Shown here: piece by piece, positions 1 through 24,662 of the stretch | Numbering within the stretch: position 1 is the stretch's first letter | How the letters are laid out: each line of letters starts with the position of its first letter | Source: Anaerolineales bacterium | GTDB lineage: Bacteria; Chloroflexota; Anaerolineae; Anaerolineales; Villigracilaceae | Direction of reading: 5' to 3' | Assembly (NCBI GenBank): GCA_020060625.1 | Contig: JAGUZU010000036.1 | Span: forward strand, 1 to 48,555 | Length of the DNA stretch: 48,555 nt | Translations under genes and position numbers: made by a program | The notes under the pieces: generated by a model | The model's database searches: none | The model's input: only the letters and a program-made list of their open reading frames with translations | What the model was told of the DNA's origin: nothing

Positions 1-98
1 ATAGCGCGGCAAGCCGCAGCCAAAGTAAGTCGGATTGGCAATCCGACCTACGCGCAAAATCTTCGCGGTAGGCATAGTTTTTACAGAGCAATACTATA
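1..98. repeat. Palindromic intergenic repeat, copy 1
   Basis: This is a 98-bp element with a second copy at 38324-38417. The first 24 bases of the two copies are identical, and the right-hand part (an aaaatcttcgcgg block through to a terminal atactata) is nearly so. The centre is a hairpin (25-36 pairing with 40-51, one mismatch) whose arm sequence is unrelated to the arm in copy 2. The element ends at an in-frame stop (97-99) directly ahead of a GxxExxY gene remnant. The left boundary may lie outside the window. Confidence 0.75.
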
Positions 99-99
99 G

Positions 100-252
100 A
101 TTGCTCATAGCGCCCAACTCTTGAACTATCTTAAGGCAACAGAGATTGAAGTTGGTCTTTTATTGAACTTCGGACGTGAAGCCGAATTTCGACGTAAAAT
201 ATATGATAACCCTAAGAAAGGTTCATTGACTTGGATCACCCCCAACCCGTAA
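100..252 (+). pseudogene. C-terminal remnant of a GxxExxY family protein
   Basis: The plus frame ending at the TAA at 250-252 encodes about 50 residues that align closely with the last 50 residues of the intact GxxExxY protein at 3811-4227. Both share AQLLNYL, then EVGLLLNFG, then an RK.YDN block. The frame is closed upstream by a stop at 97-99 that belongs to the palindromic repeat. The catalytic PD-(D/E)XK part and the GxxExxY motif are absent, so this fragment cannot be functional. Whether the repeat inserted into the gene or a deletion joined the two cannot be told, because the left flank is missing. Confidence 0.75.
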
Positions 253-258
253 CCATTA

Positions 259-297
259 AGCTCTTTCCGTGAATTCCGTGTCACTCCGTGTACAAAA
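259..297. repeat. 3' arm of GxxExxY cassette
   Basis: Three spaced ccgtg blocks follow the remnant's stop codon. The stretch matches about 20 of 29 positions of the arm after the intact GxxExxY gene (4229-4260). Both arms end only a few bases before the next start codon. Confidence 0.5.
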
Positions 298-300
298 ATC

Positions 301-1056
301 ATGACCAAAACAATCCTCATCACTGGCGCGGCGGGCGGTATCGGACGCGCCTCCGTTGCCCTTTTCGCTGAAAAAGGCTGGCGAGTCATCGGCGTGGATC
401 GCAACGAATTTGGCGAAGATTTCCCCAAAAACGGACTCTTCATCCAATCCGACATTGCCCGCCCCGAAGATATGGAATCCATCTTCGAGAAAGCCAAAGC
501 CTTCACCGATTCGCTCGATGCGTTGGTCAACAATGCCGCGTTGCAAGTGGCAAAACCACTTGTGGAAACAACCGTCGATGAGTGGGATGCGGTCATGGCG
601 GCAAATCTGCGCTCGGTATTCCTCGGCGTCAAACTGGCGCATCCGCTTCTCAAAGCTGGGAATGGCGGCGCCATCGTGAACGTCTCCTCCGTCCATGCCG
701 TGCAGACTTCCGCCAACATCGCCGCCTACGCCGCCTCCAAAGGCGGGTTGCTCGCGCTAACCCGCGCCATGGCAATCGAATTCGCGCCGGAAAACATCCG
801 CGTCAATGCCGTTCTGCCCGGCGCGGTGGATACGCCCATGCTGCGTGCCGGTCTTGGGCGCGGACACGTCGGCGGCGGCGATGTGCAGGAACGCCTGGAT
901 AACCTCGCCCGCAAAACCGTCAACGGGCGCGTGGGCACACCCGCTGAAATTGCCCATGCCATTTACTTCCTCGCCGATAACGAGCAATCCTCCTTCATGA
1001 CCGGTCAAGCCATGATCGTGGACGGCGGCGCGACGGCGAGACTCAGCACGGAGTAA
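301..1056 (+). CDS. SDR family NAD(P)-dependent oxidoreductase
   Basis: This is a classical short-chain dehydrogenase/reductase of 251 residues, the usual length. The Rossmann cofactor loop TGAAGGIG is at residues 8-15, the NNAA motif near 78-81, the catalytic serine at 129/130, and the YxxxK pair at Tyr143 and Lys147. D33 at the end of the second strand suggests a preference for NAD(H). The C-terminal segment has the common ending in which an IVDGG motif closes the fold. The substrate cannot be read from sequence. It is the first gene of a plus-strand run of envelope and glycan genes, so a sugar or polyketide-like alcohol is possible, but this is only context. The ATG lies just after a GxxExxY cassette arm, with no obvious Shine-Dalgarno sequence, so its transcription may start within or near that repeat. 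Confidence 0.9.
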   Translation: MTKTILITGAAGGIGRASVALFAEKGWRVIGVDRNEFGEDFPKNGLFIQSDIARPEDMESIFEKAKAFTDSLDALVNNAALQVAKPLVETTVDEWDAVMAANLRSVFLGVKLAHPLLKAGNGGAIVNVSSVHAVQTSANIAAYAASKGGLLALTRAMAIEFAPENIRVNAVLPGAVDTPMLRAGLGRGHVGGGDVQERLDNLARKTVNGRVGTPAEIAHAIYFLADNEQSSFMTGQAMIVDGGATARLSTE

Positions 1057-20752: not shown

Positions 20753-22489
20753 CTATTTTTTCGCGCCTTTTATCATTTGCCGGGCTGTCTGAAGCAATTC
20801 ATGGGCGGATCGCAGGGTTCCCTCGCCCACTTCGCCCAGCATTTGCGAAAGTTCCAACAGGCGCGATTCGCCTTCCAATTGCTCCACGCGGGTAAGAGTG
20901 CGCCCCTTATCCACCAGTTTTTGAACCTGATAATGTTGGTCGCCAAAGACGGCAAGTTGGGGGAGGTGCGTCACACAAAAGACCTGGTGACTGCGCGAAA
21001 GATTCCACAGTTTCTGCCCGACCACCATACCCACACGCCCGCCGATGCCCTGGTCAATTTCATCAAAGATGAGGGATGGCACTTCGTCGGCGCGCGCCAT
21101 GACGTTCTTCAAACCGAGCATCAGGCGCGAGGTCTCGCCGCCGGAGGCGATCTTCGCCAGCGGCTTGAGTCCTTCGCCGGGGTTCGGGGCGACGAGAAAT
21201 TCCACGCGGTCAAATCCGCTTTGGTCGAATGCGATGCGGGTTCCATCTGCGAGAGGCGCGCCGTTTGGGTCCTGCTTGATTTGGAAATCCACGCCAAATT
21301 TAGCGGAAGCCATCCGCAGGTCATCCAGTTCCAATTCGATGCCTTTGCCCATCTCGCCCGCCGCGGACTTGCGCTTTTCGGTAAGCGCGCTTCCCTGTTT
21401 GCCGAGTTTCTCCAAGAGATTGGCTTCCTGCAATTCCAATTCTGTAATGCGATCCGCCGCGCCGGTGATGGTCTCCAACTGTCTGCGCGCGTCCTCACCA
21501 TAAGCGATGACCGCGGGGATATTCCCACCGTACTTGCGTATGAGGGAGTGGAGCAGGTCCAGCCGCTCCTCGACATCGTCCAATCGCTTCGGATTGAACT
21601 CGATCTCCTCCAGATAATTCCGCAGGTTGTGAATGACATCGGACATCGTATCGAGCATGACCTCCGCCTGATTCGCCAATTCGATCTGACCTTCATCGAT
21701 CTTTGCCAGCGCGGCAAGCGCCTGCGCCGCCTGCCCGACGAGATCGGTTGCAGCAGGAGTATCCGGCGTGCCTTCCTCCAGAACCGCCAGCGCCTCCTGC
21801 GCATTCTTCGCCAGCGACTCGGCATTTGCAAGCCTGTCGCGCTCCTTGCGAAGTTCGTCGTCCTCGCCCGGCTTGAGTTTGGCGGCTTCGATCTCCTCGG
21901 CTTGATACGTGAGCATCTCGATGCGCCGGTCGGCATCCGCCTGCGCCTTCCGCAGCTCGGCTAACTCATGCCGCAAACCGAGCAAGGTATGATAGGTCTG
22001 ACGATATTCATTCAGCGGCTTGGACACTTCCGCATAGCGGTCGAGCAGACCCAGATGCGCGCGCGGATCGAGCAGGGAAAGATGTTCCGCCTGCCCGTGA
22101 ATGTCAATCAGAAACGCGCCCAACTCCTTGAGCAAACCCACATTCACCGTCCGCCCGTTGACGCGCGCCACGCTCCGCCCTTCCTTGCGGACTTCGCGCA
22201 TCAGCGTGACGTAATCGGGATCGTCCAGCAACTCTTCGCGCTTGAGGATTTCATGCACCGCCTCTTTTTCCGGACCTTTGAGCTGGAACACACCCTCGAC
22301 AAATGCCGCGTCCGAATCCGTGCGGACGAAGGTCGTATCCGCCTTCCCGCCGATGAGCATGACCACGGCGTCGAGGATAATGGACTTGCCCGCGCCCGTC
22401 TCACCGGTGAGGATGATCAACCCGGGACCGAAGCGCAGGTCGAGTTTGTCTATGATCGCGAAATTCTGGATGTGGAGTTCGGTAAGCAT
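20753..22489 (-). CDS. recN: DNA repair protein RecN
   Basis: This SMC-like ATPase acts early in double-strand break repair by holding broken ends together. The 578 residues cover the whole family. The Walker A motif GETGAGKS is at 29-36, central coiled-coil arms span roughly 150-370, the ABC signature is ASGGETSRLMLGL, and the Walker B motif is PSLIFDEIDQGIGGR in the C-terminal lobe. It is the last gene of a minus-strand unit nadK, zinc-binding membrane protein, recN. The nadK-recN pairing recurs in several bacterial phyla. A strong terminator follows. Confidence 0.95.
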   Translation of the reverse strand: MLTELHIQNFAIIDKLDLRFGPGLIILTGETGAGKSIILDAVVMLIGGKADTTFVRTDSDAAFVEGVFQLKGPEKEAVHEILKREELLDDPDYVTLMREVRKEGRSVARVNGRTVNVGLLKELGAFLIDIHGQAEHLSLLDPRAHLGLLDRYAEVSKPLNEYRQTYHTLLGLRHELAELRKAQADADRRIEMLTYQAEEIEAAKLKPGEDDELRKERDRLANAESLAKNAQEALAVLEEGTPDTPAATDLVGQAAQALAALAKIDEGQIELANQAEVMLDTMSDVIHNLRNYLEEIEFNPKRLDDVEERLDLLHSLIRKYGGNIPAVIAYGEDARRQLETITGAADRITELELQEANLLEKLGKQGSALTEKRKSAAGEMGKGIELELDDLRMASAKFGVDFQIKQDPNGAPLADGTRIAFDQSGFDRVEFLVAPNPGEGLKPLAKIASGGETSRLMLGLKNVMARADEVPSLIFDEIDQGIGGRVGMVVGQKLWNLSRSHQVFCVTHLPQLAVFGDQHYQVQKLVDKGRTLTRVEQLEGESRLLELSQMLGEVGEGTLRSAHELLQTARQMIKGAKK

Positions 22490-22492
22490 ACG

Positions 22493-23011
22493 TTAGAGTC
22501 GAATCCCTGAAATGCGAGAGTACACCATCGGTGTTGCGATGACGAGATAAATGACGACCCCGATGACGCCGTAGATATTTCCCGTGAAAAACAAGGCAAG
22601 GACGGCGGGCAATCCTCCAAGTACAACGCCCGCCGCGCAGGTGAGGAATAACGCCCGTGAGCGGCGTTTGTTGAGCGCGCGCAGGGTCAGGTTCGAGATC
22701 AACGTCCCCGCGCCGCCACCGATGCCTGCCGCAAGGAAGAACATGAAAAAGCCAATGAACGAGCCAATGAAAGCGATCAACAGGCTGGCAAGCAGCGAAA
22801 GAATGGATGTGACCGCCAAGCCGACAATATAGTCATACCAGACCGCCGTCTCGAATGCCTTTTGGTGGGCGCGGGCGCACTCCTTGCAAATATAGCCCGT
22901 CGGCGTGCGGACGGCGCAGGACGTGCAAATGGGGCGTTCGCACCGTTTGCACCGCAGGCTGGTTTCGCGTGTTGGATGGATGTAGCAATAGAGCGTTGTA
23001 GTTTCGGTCAT
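22493..23011 (-). CDS. B-box-like zinc-binding membrane protein
   Basis: This 172-residue protein has an N-terminal treble-clef or B-box-type zinc site, CxxH...CxxC....CxxC........CxxC (residues 9-44), ahead of three or four membrane helices (about 60-80, 82-102, 122-142 and 143-163). The cytoplasmic zinc domain plus membrane bundle resembles proteins annotated as B-box zinc finger or rhomboid-associated, but without catalytic residues. Its start overlaps the nadK stop by four bases, and recN follows three bases after its end. Its role is unknown; the tight packing with recN suggests co-expression rather than a proven link to repair. Confidence 0.75.
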   Translation of the reverse strand: MTETTTLYCYIHPTRETSLRCKRCERPICTSCAVRTPTGYICKECARAHQKAFETAVWYDYIVGLAVTSILSLLASLLIAFIGSFIGFFMFFLAAGIGGGAGTLISNLTLRALNKRRSRALFLTCAAGVVLGGLPAVLALFFTGNIYGVIGVVIYLVIATPMVYSRISGIRL

Positions 23012-23868
23012 CGTGGAAGTCCTAAAGAGTTTTCATTCATGTGCGCTGTTAGATTGCGGTAAAAATACCCCGGGTCTCCAAAGCGGACGAATTGCGCGGT
23101 TACGTCAGCCGCAGTGACCATCACCTGGTCATCCTCCATCAGCGGCGTGGGCGGCTGACCGTCCACGCTCAGCACGGCATTCTCGCTCTTGACAACAATG
23201 CTGACCGAAGAGCCTTCCGAAAGGACAACCGCCCGGTCAACGGAGAGATGAGGCGCGATCGGCACGAGCAAAATATTCCGCAATTCCGGCGGCAGGATCG
23301 GACCGCCCGCCGCGAGGGCGTACGCCGTCGAACCCGTCGCAGTGGAGGCGATCAAGCCGTCCGCCACGTAACTGGTCAATTGGCGGGTATCCACAAACGC
23401 AGTCAGGCGCACGGGGCGAAGGTTTTGTCCGCGCCCAACCACCACTTCGTTCAAAGCGTTCGAGCCGCCAAGCCGCTCCCCCGCGCGGATATGCTCCGCA
23501 TGAAGCATCATGCGGTTTTCGATCCACGCCTCGCCGTTGAAAAGTTTTTCGAAGTGTTCGCGCCATTCCCTGCGGTCTATCTGGATTAGAAACCCAAGCC
23601 TGCCGAGGTTCACGCCTAAAATGGGAACGCCGCAGGGAGCGCATAAATGCCCGGCTCTCAAAACGCTTCCATCACCGCCGACGGCGATCAGCATGTCGAA
23701 TTCGCCGCTCTTCACCCGCCTGCGGATATCCTCGTCATACAACGAACCGACAGGCGCGTCCATGCCCTTTTCCTTCAAAAAGGCAGACATGGCTTCCCCT
23801 TCTGCAAAGGCTTCCGGCATCTTCGGGTATGCCGTTACCACCGGGCGCTTTGGGATAAATGCGGACAT
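23008..23868 (-). CDS. nadK: NAD kinase
   Basis: NAD kinase phosphorylates NAD to NADP. The 286 residues include the ATP/NAD site GGDGS at 64-68, the NE pair (N140, E141) in LNEVVVGRG, and the conserved DG and TATGSTAYALAAGG segment (170-189). The C-terminal half has the usual LSVDGQ. It is the first gene of the nadK, zinc-binding protein, recN unit. It lies 48 bases downstream of the Cas4-like gene pair on the same strand, so all five genes may be on one transcript. Confidence 0.94.
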   Translation of the reverse strand: MSAFIPKRPVVTAYPKMPEAFAEGEAMSAFLKEKGMDAPVGSLYDEDIRRRVKSGEFDMLIAVGGDGSVLRAGHLCAPCGVPILGVNLGRLGFLIQIDRREWREHFEKLFNGEAWIENRMMLHAEHIRAGERLGGSNALNEVVVGRGQNLRPVRLTAFVDTRQLTSYVADGLIASTATGSTAYALAAGGPILPPELRNILLVPIAPHLSVDRAVVLSEGSSVSIVVKSENAVLSVDGQPPTPLMEDDQVMVTAADVTAQFVRFGDPGYFYRNLTAHMNENSLGLPR

Positions 23869-23916: not shown

Positions 23917-24429
23917 TCATGCCAGTTTTTCGTCACAGACATTGCGGTAGCCGCATCGTTTACAACGGGACGCCTGTTCATGCGAGCGAGGGACATTGCG
24001 CCTCACGTCGTCCCGGCGCATGTCTGCCAGCAGTTCGATCAGCGCGGATTCCAGTTCGCGCGTGTAATCAATTGCGAAATCGCGGTTCTCGTAATGGATG
24101 ATGCCATACGGCGGACGTTTGCGATACGTCTTTTCGACCAGCAGGCAATACGAAGCCAGTTGAAAAATATGCGAATCATACGGCGCTTCGGGCGCGCGCC
24201 CCGACTTCACCTCCACAGGGATGATCTGTCCGTTCTTTTCGATCAGGTAATCGGGCTTGCCCGTCAGACCGAGCGCGGCATGAAAAAGCGGCTTCTCCAC
24301 TTTGCCCCAGCCGTCCGTGTCGGTGTAAATGACCCGCCCGCCGGGCAGACCCGCGGCTTTCTGCTGGCGGTTCGACAGCCAGAAAAAAATCAGCGCGAGC
24401 AAAAAAAGGAGAAGGACGACGTAGGTCAT
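23917..24429 (-). CDS. Membrane-anchored Cas4-like nuclease, C-terminal half
   Basis: This 170-residue protein begins with one membrane helix (residues 2-18) followed by NRQQK, which should be cytoplasmic. After it comes a RecB/Cas4-type PD-(D/E)XK core: GKPD with Asp60, VEVKSG with Glu73 and Lys75, and the QLASY (QxxxY) helix at 90-94. It ends with three cysteines, C156, C159 and C165 (CX2CX5C), spaced as in the Fe-S site of Cas4. The fourth Cas4 cysteine and the catalytic-site histidine are missing here and are found in the preceding gene, whose stop overlaps this start by four bases (ATGA). A complete active site would need both chains, or a single fused chain if a frameshift is present. 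No CRISPR or other cas gene is in the window; repair genes flank it. Confidence 0.75.
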   Translation of the reverse strand: MTYVVLLLFLLALIFFWLSNRQQKAAGLPGGRVIYTDTDGWGKVEKPLFHAALGLTGKPDYLIEKNGQIIPVEVKSGRAPEAPYDSHIFQLASYCLLVEKTYRKRPPYGIIHYENRDFAIDYTRELESALIELLADMRRDDVRRNVPRSHEQASRCKRCGYRNVCDEKLA

Positions 24430-24662
24430 AACCATTGAAAGGCGAGATATGCGACCAGTGTGAGAATCGCCGCCAGAAGCAGGATCAAGCCCAAAGTCCG
24501 GGTGAGAAGCGAGGCAAGCACCTGGCGCCCGTGTCTGCGATGGAGGTCCGTCCCGGCGGCAAGTTCGGTCTGATTCTCGGAAGGCGTCCCGGTTTTGCGA
24601 TACCACCACGCGCGGCGGCAGTAGAGGTAATTTCCGATTTCGGAAGAGCGGATCGCGCGCAT
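24426..24662 (-). CDS. Membrane-anchored Cas4-like protein, N-terminal half
   Basis: This 78-residue protein matches the N-terminal Cas4 region. SSEIGNYLYCRRAWWY carries Cys15, the position of the first Fe-S ligand. GTDLHRRHG carries His41 and His44, where Cas4 has its active-site histidine; the Cys-to-His distance (26-29) is close to that in characterised Cas4 proteins. The rest is one membrane helix (about 56-77) that ends at the stop codon. The ATG at 24662 is used; an extension to 24752 adds an unconserved hydrophobic leader. With the helix at its C-terminus the chain would have its N-terminal domain in the cytoplasm, opposite in direction to the next gene's helix, so the two halves would meet on the cytoplasmic side. 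Confidence 0.7.
   Translation of the reverse strand: MRAIRSSEIGNYLYCRRAWWYRKTGTPSENQTELAAGTDLHRRHGRQVLASLLTRTLGLILLLAAILTLVAYLAFQWL

Follow-up and report, generated by a model that had tools for sequence, protein, structure and literature searches.

The Fe–S nucleases Cas4, EXO5, and Dna2 act on ssDNA ends, and EXO5, Dna2, and AddB/AdnA use a cluster held by one plus three cysteines, with the nuclease domain in one chain, often together with a helicase, and no known membrane hairpin. A 2017 survey of Cas4 (Hudaiberdiev et al., PMC5704561) reported Cas4 proteins encoded outside CRISPR loci, the so-called solo-Cas4, from "many Chloroflexi", where they are monophyletic, and its abstract leaves their functions open. 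The window considered here, which is the whole stretch of 48,555 nucleotides that was analyzed, contains two overlapping genes, A and B, that divide the landmarks of a Cas4 between them. Their most plausible reading, to which a probability of about 0.72 is assigned in the absence of any binding, cluster, or nuclease data, is that A and B are two subunits of one membrane-anchored nuclease of the Cas4 family that acts on ssDNA. The features on which this reading rests are the following:

24426..24662, minus strand: gene A, 78 aa, with an N-terminal Cas4-type Cys/His module and a C-terminal membrane helix (ORF, TIGR00372, conserved upstream of B)
24618..24620, minus strand: Cys15 codon of A, predicted first Fe–S ligand (invariant in 44/44 A sequences)
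24540..24542, minus strand: His41 codon of A, the Cas4 motif histidine (invariant in 44/44)
24429..24500, minus strand: C-terminal membrane helix of A, about residues 55–78 (hydropathy and flanking charge)
24426..24429, minus strand: ATGA overlap of 4 nt, stop of A and start of B (sequence)
23917..24429, minus strand: gene B, 170 aa, with an N-terminal membrane helix, a PD-(D/E)XK core, and three cysteines (ORF, profiles, fold)
24352..24426, minus strand: N-terminal membrane helix of B, residues 2–26 in the model (hydropathy/charge, predicted fold)
24250..24252, minus strand: Asp60 codon of B, catalytic (D in 60/62)
24205..24213, minus strand: Glu73-x-Lys75 codons of B, catalytic (E in 58/62, K in 60/62)
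24148..24162, minus strand: Gln90-x3-Tyr94 codons of B, the QxxxY motif (Q in 60/62, Y in 58/62)
23935..23964, minus strand: Cys156-x2-Cys159-x5-Cys165 codons of B, predicted Fe–S ligands (each invariant in 62/62)

A preliminary description of this DNA had claimed two overlapping minus-strand frames joined by an ATGA, with the Cas4 landmarks distributed over both, and the frames, the overlap, and the distribution are all borne out. Gene A matches the Cas4 model TIGR00372 over positions 2–50 with 27 bits, under the 65-bit cut-off, and gene B over positions 58–178 with 77.3 bits, above it, so that the two genes cover complementary portions of one Cas4 model, with the motif residues conserved in each. 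Moreover, B exceeds the cut-off of PF01930 (39.9 bits against 22.7) and that of PF12705, while the relatives P0003, P0005, and P0007 reach 47–58 bits with TIGR00372, under its cut-off. The best matches in PADLOC are Cas4 models, followed by weaker ones to DruK, Cas1b/Cas1g, and PDC-S01, and a profile search of the own genome found no second Cas4 match above cut-off. Among the criteria of the Cas4 family, the RecB-type PD-(D/E)XK core with D, ExK, and QxxxY is met by B, and the four Cas4 cysteines, one N-terminal and three C-terminal, are present, yet spread over two chains, with cluster binding inferred. The usual form of Cas4, a single polypeptide without membrane helices, which the models do not demand, is not met. 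Thus, with two genes and two membrane helices conserved, the pair is filed as a Cas4 variant and not as a typical member.

The main alternative raised in the preliminary description was a frameshift, introduced in sequencing or assembly at 24426–24429, that splits an otherwise ordinary Cas4 gene, and the overlap of the two frames by just 4 nt and the one-chain form of ordinary Cas4, whose cysteine motif and core lie in one frame in 22/22 Chloroflexota comparison rows (judged by eye), could be taken in its favor. Comparison with Chloroflexota homologues speaks against it, since A and B are separate genes in relatives from many genera. Gene B is carried by 87/101 genomes of the own genus, family, and order, and its matches in those 87 start at residue 1–7 and contain no internal stops, which indicates that the membrane helix belongs to B. 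The two-gene arrangement is conserved, with both genes on the same strand and A upstream in 83/87 of these relatives, a figure made up of 81 called cases, one complete A in G048, and one A cut by the contig end in G066; one of the 81, L012, whose genome has two contigs and is 78% complete, loses its frame in the helix. In two of the 87 (G075 and G088) A is located elsewhere, and in the other two (G008 and G039) the contig ends near B and a profile search of the remaining assembly gave no convincing A. When the A profile was searched in 16 B-positive genomes lacking A near B, 14 of them carried A elsewhere at E 4.7e-19 or better, either far away or on another contig (for G282, G330, and G369 the distances are taken from match coordinates), and the two without A were the same G008 and G039, with contigs ending near B. 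In 21 B-negative genomes the same search found no convincing A, the best being a partial match in G098. In this genome, which lacks B, an apparent degraded remnant of A lies just behind the end, as read, of a translin-like gene (L199).

Presence and absence of the two genes also match. Across 400 Chloroflexota genomes, the set with a strong A and the set with a strong B are the same 94 genomes, at thresholds of E 4.7e-19 or better for A and 2.7e-34 or better for B that were chosen after viewing the lists; in 12 of these 94, the coordinates show A to be remote from B or to lie on another contig. With the threshold relaxed to E 0.001, A is found in 123 genomes, B in 155, and both in 115. The eight genomes with A only all belong to family f40, and their matches fall within frames of 475–1049 aa, while the 40 with B only include single-chain Cas4s and genomes of the f39 type, whose divergent A is missed by the profile (e.g., G116, G333, and G339) and is seen beside B, for instance in L157, L163, L164, and L176. 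In family f39 and in L160 (L153–L160, L163, and L176), gene A measures 125–144 aa as called and bears an insert between the cysteine and the helix.

The spacing between A and B was determined for 134 linked pairs, on the basis of the start codons called in the analysis: 37 pairs overlap, 24 of them by exactly 4 nt, 62 are separated by 0–110 nt, 3 by 111–250 nt, and 32 by more than 400 nt. When L012 is added, 33/135 linked pairs are interrupted, 29 of them by a HEAT-like gene and 4 by another insert. The HEAT-like gene (e.g., L008:822-1487) encodes about 200 aa and has PF20168 (PDS5) as its best Pfam match, a weak one (1.2e-3). A continuous frame in relatives, which had been named as a possible refutation, does exist in two cases, but those two sit among split genes in the tree. 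Between the conserved two-gene arrangement, the 14 genomes in which A is remote from B or sits on another contig, the 33 interrupted loci, the matching presence and absence, and the membrane helices that flank the break on both sides, the frameshift artifact is rejected with near certainty.

Both helices are general features of the pair. A strongly hydrophobic C-terminal segment is present in 134/134 A and an N-terminal hydrophobic helix in 154/154 B, 143 of the latter with starts as first called and 11 after extension to an upstream start. The charge of the flanks is higher on the N-terminal than on the C-terminal side of the A helix in 124/134 sequences (3 equal, 7 reversed), and higher after than before the B helix in 138/154 (7 equal, 9 reversed, the 11 short starts included). 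These charges favor a cytoplasmic location for the predicted soluble parts of both A and B, and the pattern fits the opposite helix orientation claimed in the preliminary description. The topology is based on hydropathy and charge, without a dedicated topology predictor. The charge and spacing counts omit duplicate loci, the single-chain or other genes of L170–L173 and L175, two fusions, and the partial B of L161 and L168, and L012 is left out of the A and spacing counts given that its A frame continues beyond the helix.

In two of the five genomes of one genus of family f39, presumably Ktedonobacteria, A and B form one frame with two helices between them. In the tree, the fused genes group with a split gene of the same genus within the f39 rows, and therefore the fusion is local; in both fusions the catalytic Asp and Glu are substituted. 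The AlphaFold model of a fusion, the best of five, has a pLDDT of 81 and a pTM of 0.64, the other four having a pLDDT of 61–64, and it was built on an alignment of 19 rows, 17 of which cover one half only. It matches the Cas4/Cas1 structure 7mi4 with a Z score of 15.2 and an rmsd of 3.6 over 160 residues, the model range 10..339 extending across both halves, followed by 8d3l (Z 13.6) and EXO5 7lwa (Z 12.6). Since the match to Cas4 covers both halves, A, the hairpin, and B are predicted to constitute one Cas4 fold into which the hairpin is inserted. Gene B of the window modeled alone has a pLDDT of 92.3 and matches 7mi4 with a Z score of 13.6 and an rmsd of 2.0 over 111 residues, and thus the criterion of a Cas4 fold is met by predicted models of both the fusion and B.

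These results make it very probable, as an inference, that A and B form one assembled fold; no Cys–Cys distances were obtained and the window pair was not co-folded. The claim that the chains assemble is strongly supported by the genomic evidence, including the natural fusion, the complementary coverage of the Cas4 model, and the cysteines conserved on both chains, while physical assembly has not been shown. That lack of demonstrated interaction, together with the genomes in which A and B are unlinked, would be compatible with the absence of a shared fold, in which case B would be completed in some other manner and A would be a small membrane partner or regulator derived from a Cas4 N-terminus. 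This explanation is improbable, given that presence and absence of A and B match, the natural fusion follows the collinear order of Cas4, C15 and H41 are conserved in A, and the fusion model matches Cas4 over both halves.

Conservation was assessed in alignments of 44 A and 62 B chosen representatives, the B set excluding the fusions and the A set excluding the divergent A of f39. The invariant columns of A are C15, R17, G37, and H41, with H44 kept in 40/44, and those of B are C156, C159, and C165. Absence of the first cysteine in homologues of the short gene had been put forward as a refutation; C15 is present in all 44 of these A representatives. Across Chloroflexota, Bacillota, and Planctomycetota, E8, C15, W19, G37, and H41 are kept in A (7 rows) and D60, E73, K75, Q90, and the three cysteines in B (6 rows, window numbering). 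Median dN/dS is 0.14 for A (45 pairs) and 0.07 for B (39 pairs) at 10 same-genus loci. In gene B of L157, L163, L167, and L174 (4/62), some of the D, E, and K residues are lost and all three cysteines are kept. These four, together with the fusions L164 and L178, are possible pseudonucleases that retain the three B cysteines.

With catalytic residues substituted in the fusions and missing in 4/62 B, nuclease activity is not universal in the family, and an ssDNA nuclease activity in most lineages is inferred as reasonably likely. The stronger conservation of the cysteines than of the D/ExK residues, along with the incomplete catalytic set of both natural fusions and of those four B genes, could also suggest a DNA-binding scaffold acting through the Fe–S module, for which nuclease activity would be dispensable. 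Nevertheless, D, E, K, Q, and Y are each kept in 58 to 60 of the 62 sequences and B of the window keeps them all, so that a scaffold is an unlikely explanation.

In the nuclease favored here, A would supply the N-terminal cysteine and the motif histidine and end in an outward-going helix, and B would begin with an inward-going helix and supply D/ExK, QxxxY, and the three other cysteines. The two helices could pair as a hairpin, allowing the soluble parts, both cytoplasmic, to dock into one Cas4 fold with a putative [4Fe-4S] cluster that draws a single ligand from A and the other three from B. With the ligands divided in this way, activity would depend on the assembly of both chains. The complex would most likely trim or degrade ssDNA at the inner face of the membrane, and may serve in housekeeping DNA repair or ssDNA processing for which CRISPR is not needed. 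The shared Fe–S cluster, the exonuclease activity, and the cellular role are all inferred.

The neighborhood offers some indications of this role. The genes that follow the pair in the window are:

23008..23868, minus strand: nadK, the downstream neighbor (NAD_kinase domains)
22493..23011, minus strand: small zinc finger protein of B-box-like type, with hydrophobic segments (PF00643 slightly under cut-off, conserved position, segments as judged from the sequence)
20753..22489, minus strand: recN, next in the cluster (RecF/RecN/SMC domain, conserved position)

Downstream of B, nadK is found in 30/30 loci L001–L030 and in 50/57 loci L036–L092, and it is mostly followed in them by the B-box-like gene and recN. 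The B-box-like zinc finger gene between nadK and recN is kept in many loci of the order. In other families the cluster extends further upstream: a translin-like gene occurs in 32/176 loci and is located near upstream of A in 31 of the 32, and ssb (PF00436) occurs in 27/176; the total of 176 includes duplicates and short loci. The translin assignment is weak, with PF01997 at E 3.5e-4 and NF011160 at 252 bits, both under cut-off; among NCBIfam models, those nearest to the gene bear the name "haloacid dehalogenase superfamily protein". In loci L062–L118, a cluster in the order ssb, translin-like gene, A, B, nadK, and recN is recurrent. The pair of Bacillus has a DinG/YoaA-type helicase and one small gene upstream (PF13307 above cut-off, the YoaA model below). 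Behind the pair on the Bacillus subtilis plasmid come hfq, a gene of the thermonuclease family, and one of the toprim type (L285:4445-6970). The surroundings are different in other classes, loci of the Roseiflexus/Chloroploca type having uppS-cdsA-rseP-like genes beside the pair, according to a reading of the sequence without a profile test. Taken together, ssb, the translin-like gene, and the DinG/YoaA-type helicase point to a link with ssDNA. As for the suggestion, based on the flanking nadK-recN and ruvC-ruvA genes, of DNA repair at the membrane, the nadK-recN linkage is conserved and ssb and the translin-like gene are added elsewhere, but ruvC is near the pair solely in the genus of the window (in loci of a few kb). 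A cellular role in repair or ssDNA processing therefore stays an inference, and a tentative one.

The absence of CRISPR nearby had also been claimed, and it agrees with the data of the window, whose genome gives no Cas1 match in a profile search and where the neighbors are nadK and recN. The criterion of an adaptation module, to be encoded with cas1/cas2, is thus not met by the pair, while that of a solo-Cas4, to lie outside a CRISPR-cas locus, is met on the evidence of Cas1 and Cas4 matches and neighbors, not of an array search. However, Cas1 is found in 157/400 Chloroflexota genomes, namely in 71 of the 94 AB-positive genomes and 86 of the 306 others (in the own class, in 32/52 AB-positive genomes), and this higher frequency speaks against a wholly CRISPR-blind reading. 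The association is confounded by lineage, yet a CRISPR link in trans remains possible. The corresponding explanation, an adaptation factor working in trans with Cas1–Cas2 encoded elsewhere, has only this association behind it. It is weakened by the 23/94 AB-positive genomes, that of the window included, without a Cas1 match; by the distance of 34 kb to the nearest Cas1 on the same contig (G097), among the matches listed and by eye; by the presence alongside the pair, in at least 11 genomes, of a single-chain Cas4 from the opposite side of the tree branch; and by the conserved neighbors nadK, recN, and ssb. Such a factor is, hence, quite improbable.

The pair is widespread in Chloroflexota and is not restricted to this phylum. 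Named carriers in Chloroflexota include Herpetosiphon giganteus, H. geysericola, Roseiflexus MAGs, Candidatus Chloroploca asiatica, and Oscillochloris. A contig scan across genomes confirmed 365 relatives, and the best 80 of the 365 are Chloroflexota or unnamed bacteria by title, so that phyla beyond Chloroflexota are seen via plasmids only. In 77 of these best 80 loci A was found, its cysteine being in view in 76 and L216 being cut by the contig end, and no A was found in the other three (L238, L264, and L282). Among plasmids, NZ_OX419581.1 of Bacillus subtilis carries the pair (P0004/P0005), and both genes are present, with at least 95% identity, in two further records. The pair is also found on plasmids of Paludisphaera borealis and Singulisphaera acidiphila, with an annotated overlap of 4 nt between A and B, and gene A is labeled "hypothetical protein" in the Bacillus and planctomycete plasmid records. 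Plasmid matches of B number 18, of which 13 are annotated as cas4, 8 of these in Thermus. In the plasmid of Planctomyces sp. SH-PL62 (L288), the annotation gives B as two frames that overlap, and the expected site of A is taken up by an IS701 transposase.

That plasmids of Bacillus and planctomycetes, one of which is typed conjugative, carry the pair, and that its predicted location is the membrane, could indicate a membrane nuclease for defense or entry control that acts on incoming ssDNA during conjugation, transformation, or phage infection. On the other hand, the pair is housed in a conserved nadK-recN cluster in the order of the window, and no relatives turned up among viral contigs or phage records at the sensitivity of the searches, and a defensive function is accordingly rather unlikely, without being negligible. 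A phage or viral origin was rejected on the same absence of relatives from viral contigs and phage records at that sensitivity. The viral structures that match the models belong generally to the PD-(D/E)XK or Cas4-like exonucleases.

In a tree of 67 split B and 22 single-chain rows, all split B, those of Bacillus and planctomycetes included, lie on one side of a branch with a support of 94/96 that appears in 92% of bootstrap trees, on few resolving columns. The Bacillus branch is long, with an unusual letter make-up, and its position is unsure. The halves of the proposed two-subunit nuclease are kept as separate genes across much of Chloroflexota, with examples in two other phyla. It is conceivable, as a more speculative extension, that the pair represents an undescribed membrane nuclease family of three phyla in which the catalytic fold and the 4Fe-4S cluster arise solely once the two separate chains come together, cluster assembly thereby acting as a redox or stoichiometry switch on ssDNA at the inner membrane, some lineages being nuclease-dead with the cluster kept.

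Literature on a split or membrane-anchored Cas4 was not found by titles and abstract openings, subscription papers being mostly outside the search. Likewise, in the main text of PMC5704561, the part of that source considered, neither "split" nor "transmembrane" occurs, and "membrane" appears a single time, as part of a gene name in a figure legend. Among the known systems, EXO5, Dna2, and the AddB/AdnA Fe–S nucleases belong to the same fold group as the pair. It would be unusual, if true, for a DNA nuclease to share one Fe–S cluster between two membrane chains. The Argonaute-associated Cas4 family protein ACE1 (PDB 9iab and 9iac), one of the structure matches, has, like the pair, a Cas4-family fold outside CRISPR, but is one chain of 266–269 residues and is linked to Argonaute by title. 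Solo-Cas4 of Chloroflexi and Thermoanaerobacteriales (PMC5704561, as far as the available part goes) is like the pair in being a Cas4 outside CRISPR loci, and the solo-Cas4 of many Chloroflexi described there probably corresponds, by inference, to gene B. The pair offers strong handles on solo-Cas4, namely a second subunit, its predicted placement at the membrane, and an ssDNA neighborhood that recurs, and makes the role of solo-Cas4 directly testable, for example on a Bacillus subtilis plasmid. From the single-chain Cas4 of Chloroflexota, split B is set apart by the one supported branch of the tree. Lastly, with Cas4 itself (COG1468/PF01930/TIGR00372), the CRISPR adaptation nuclease, the pair shares the motif set, the cysteine spacing, and the predicted fold, whereas it differs in consisting of two chains, in having two membrane helices, and in residing in a genome without a Cas1 match.
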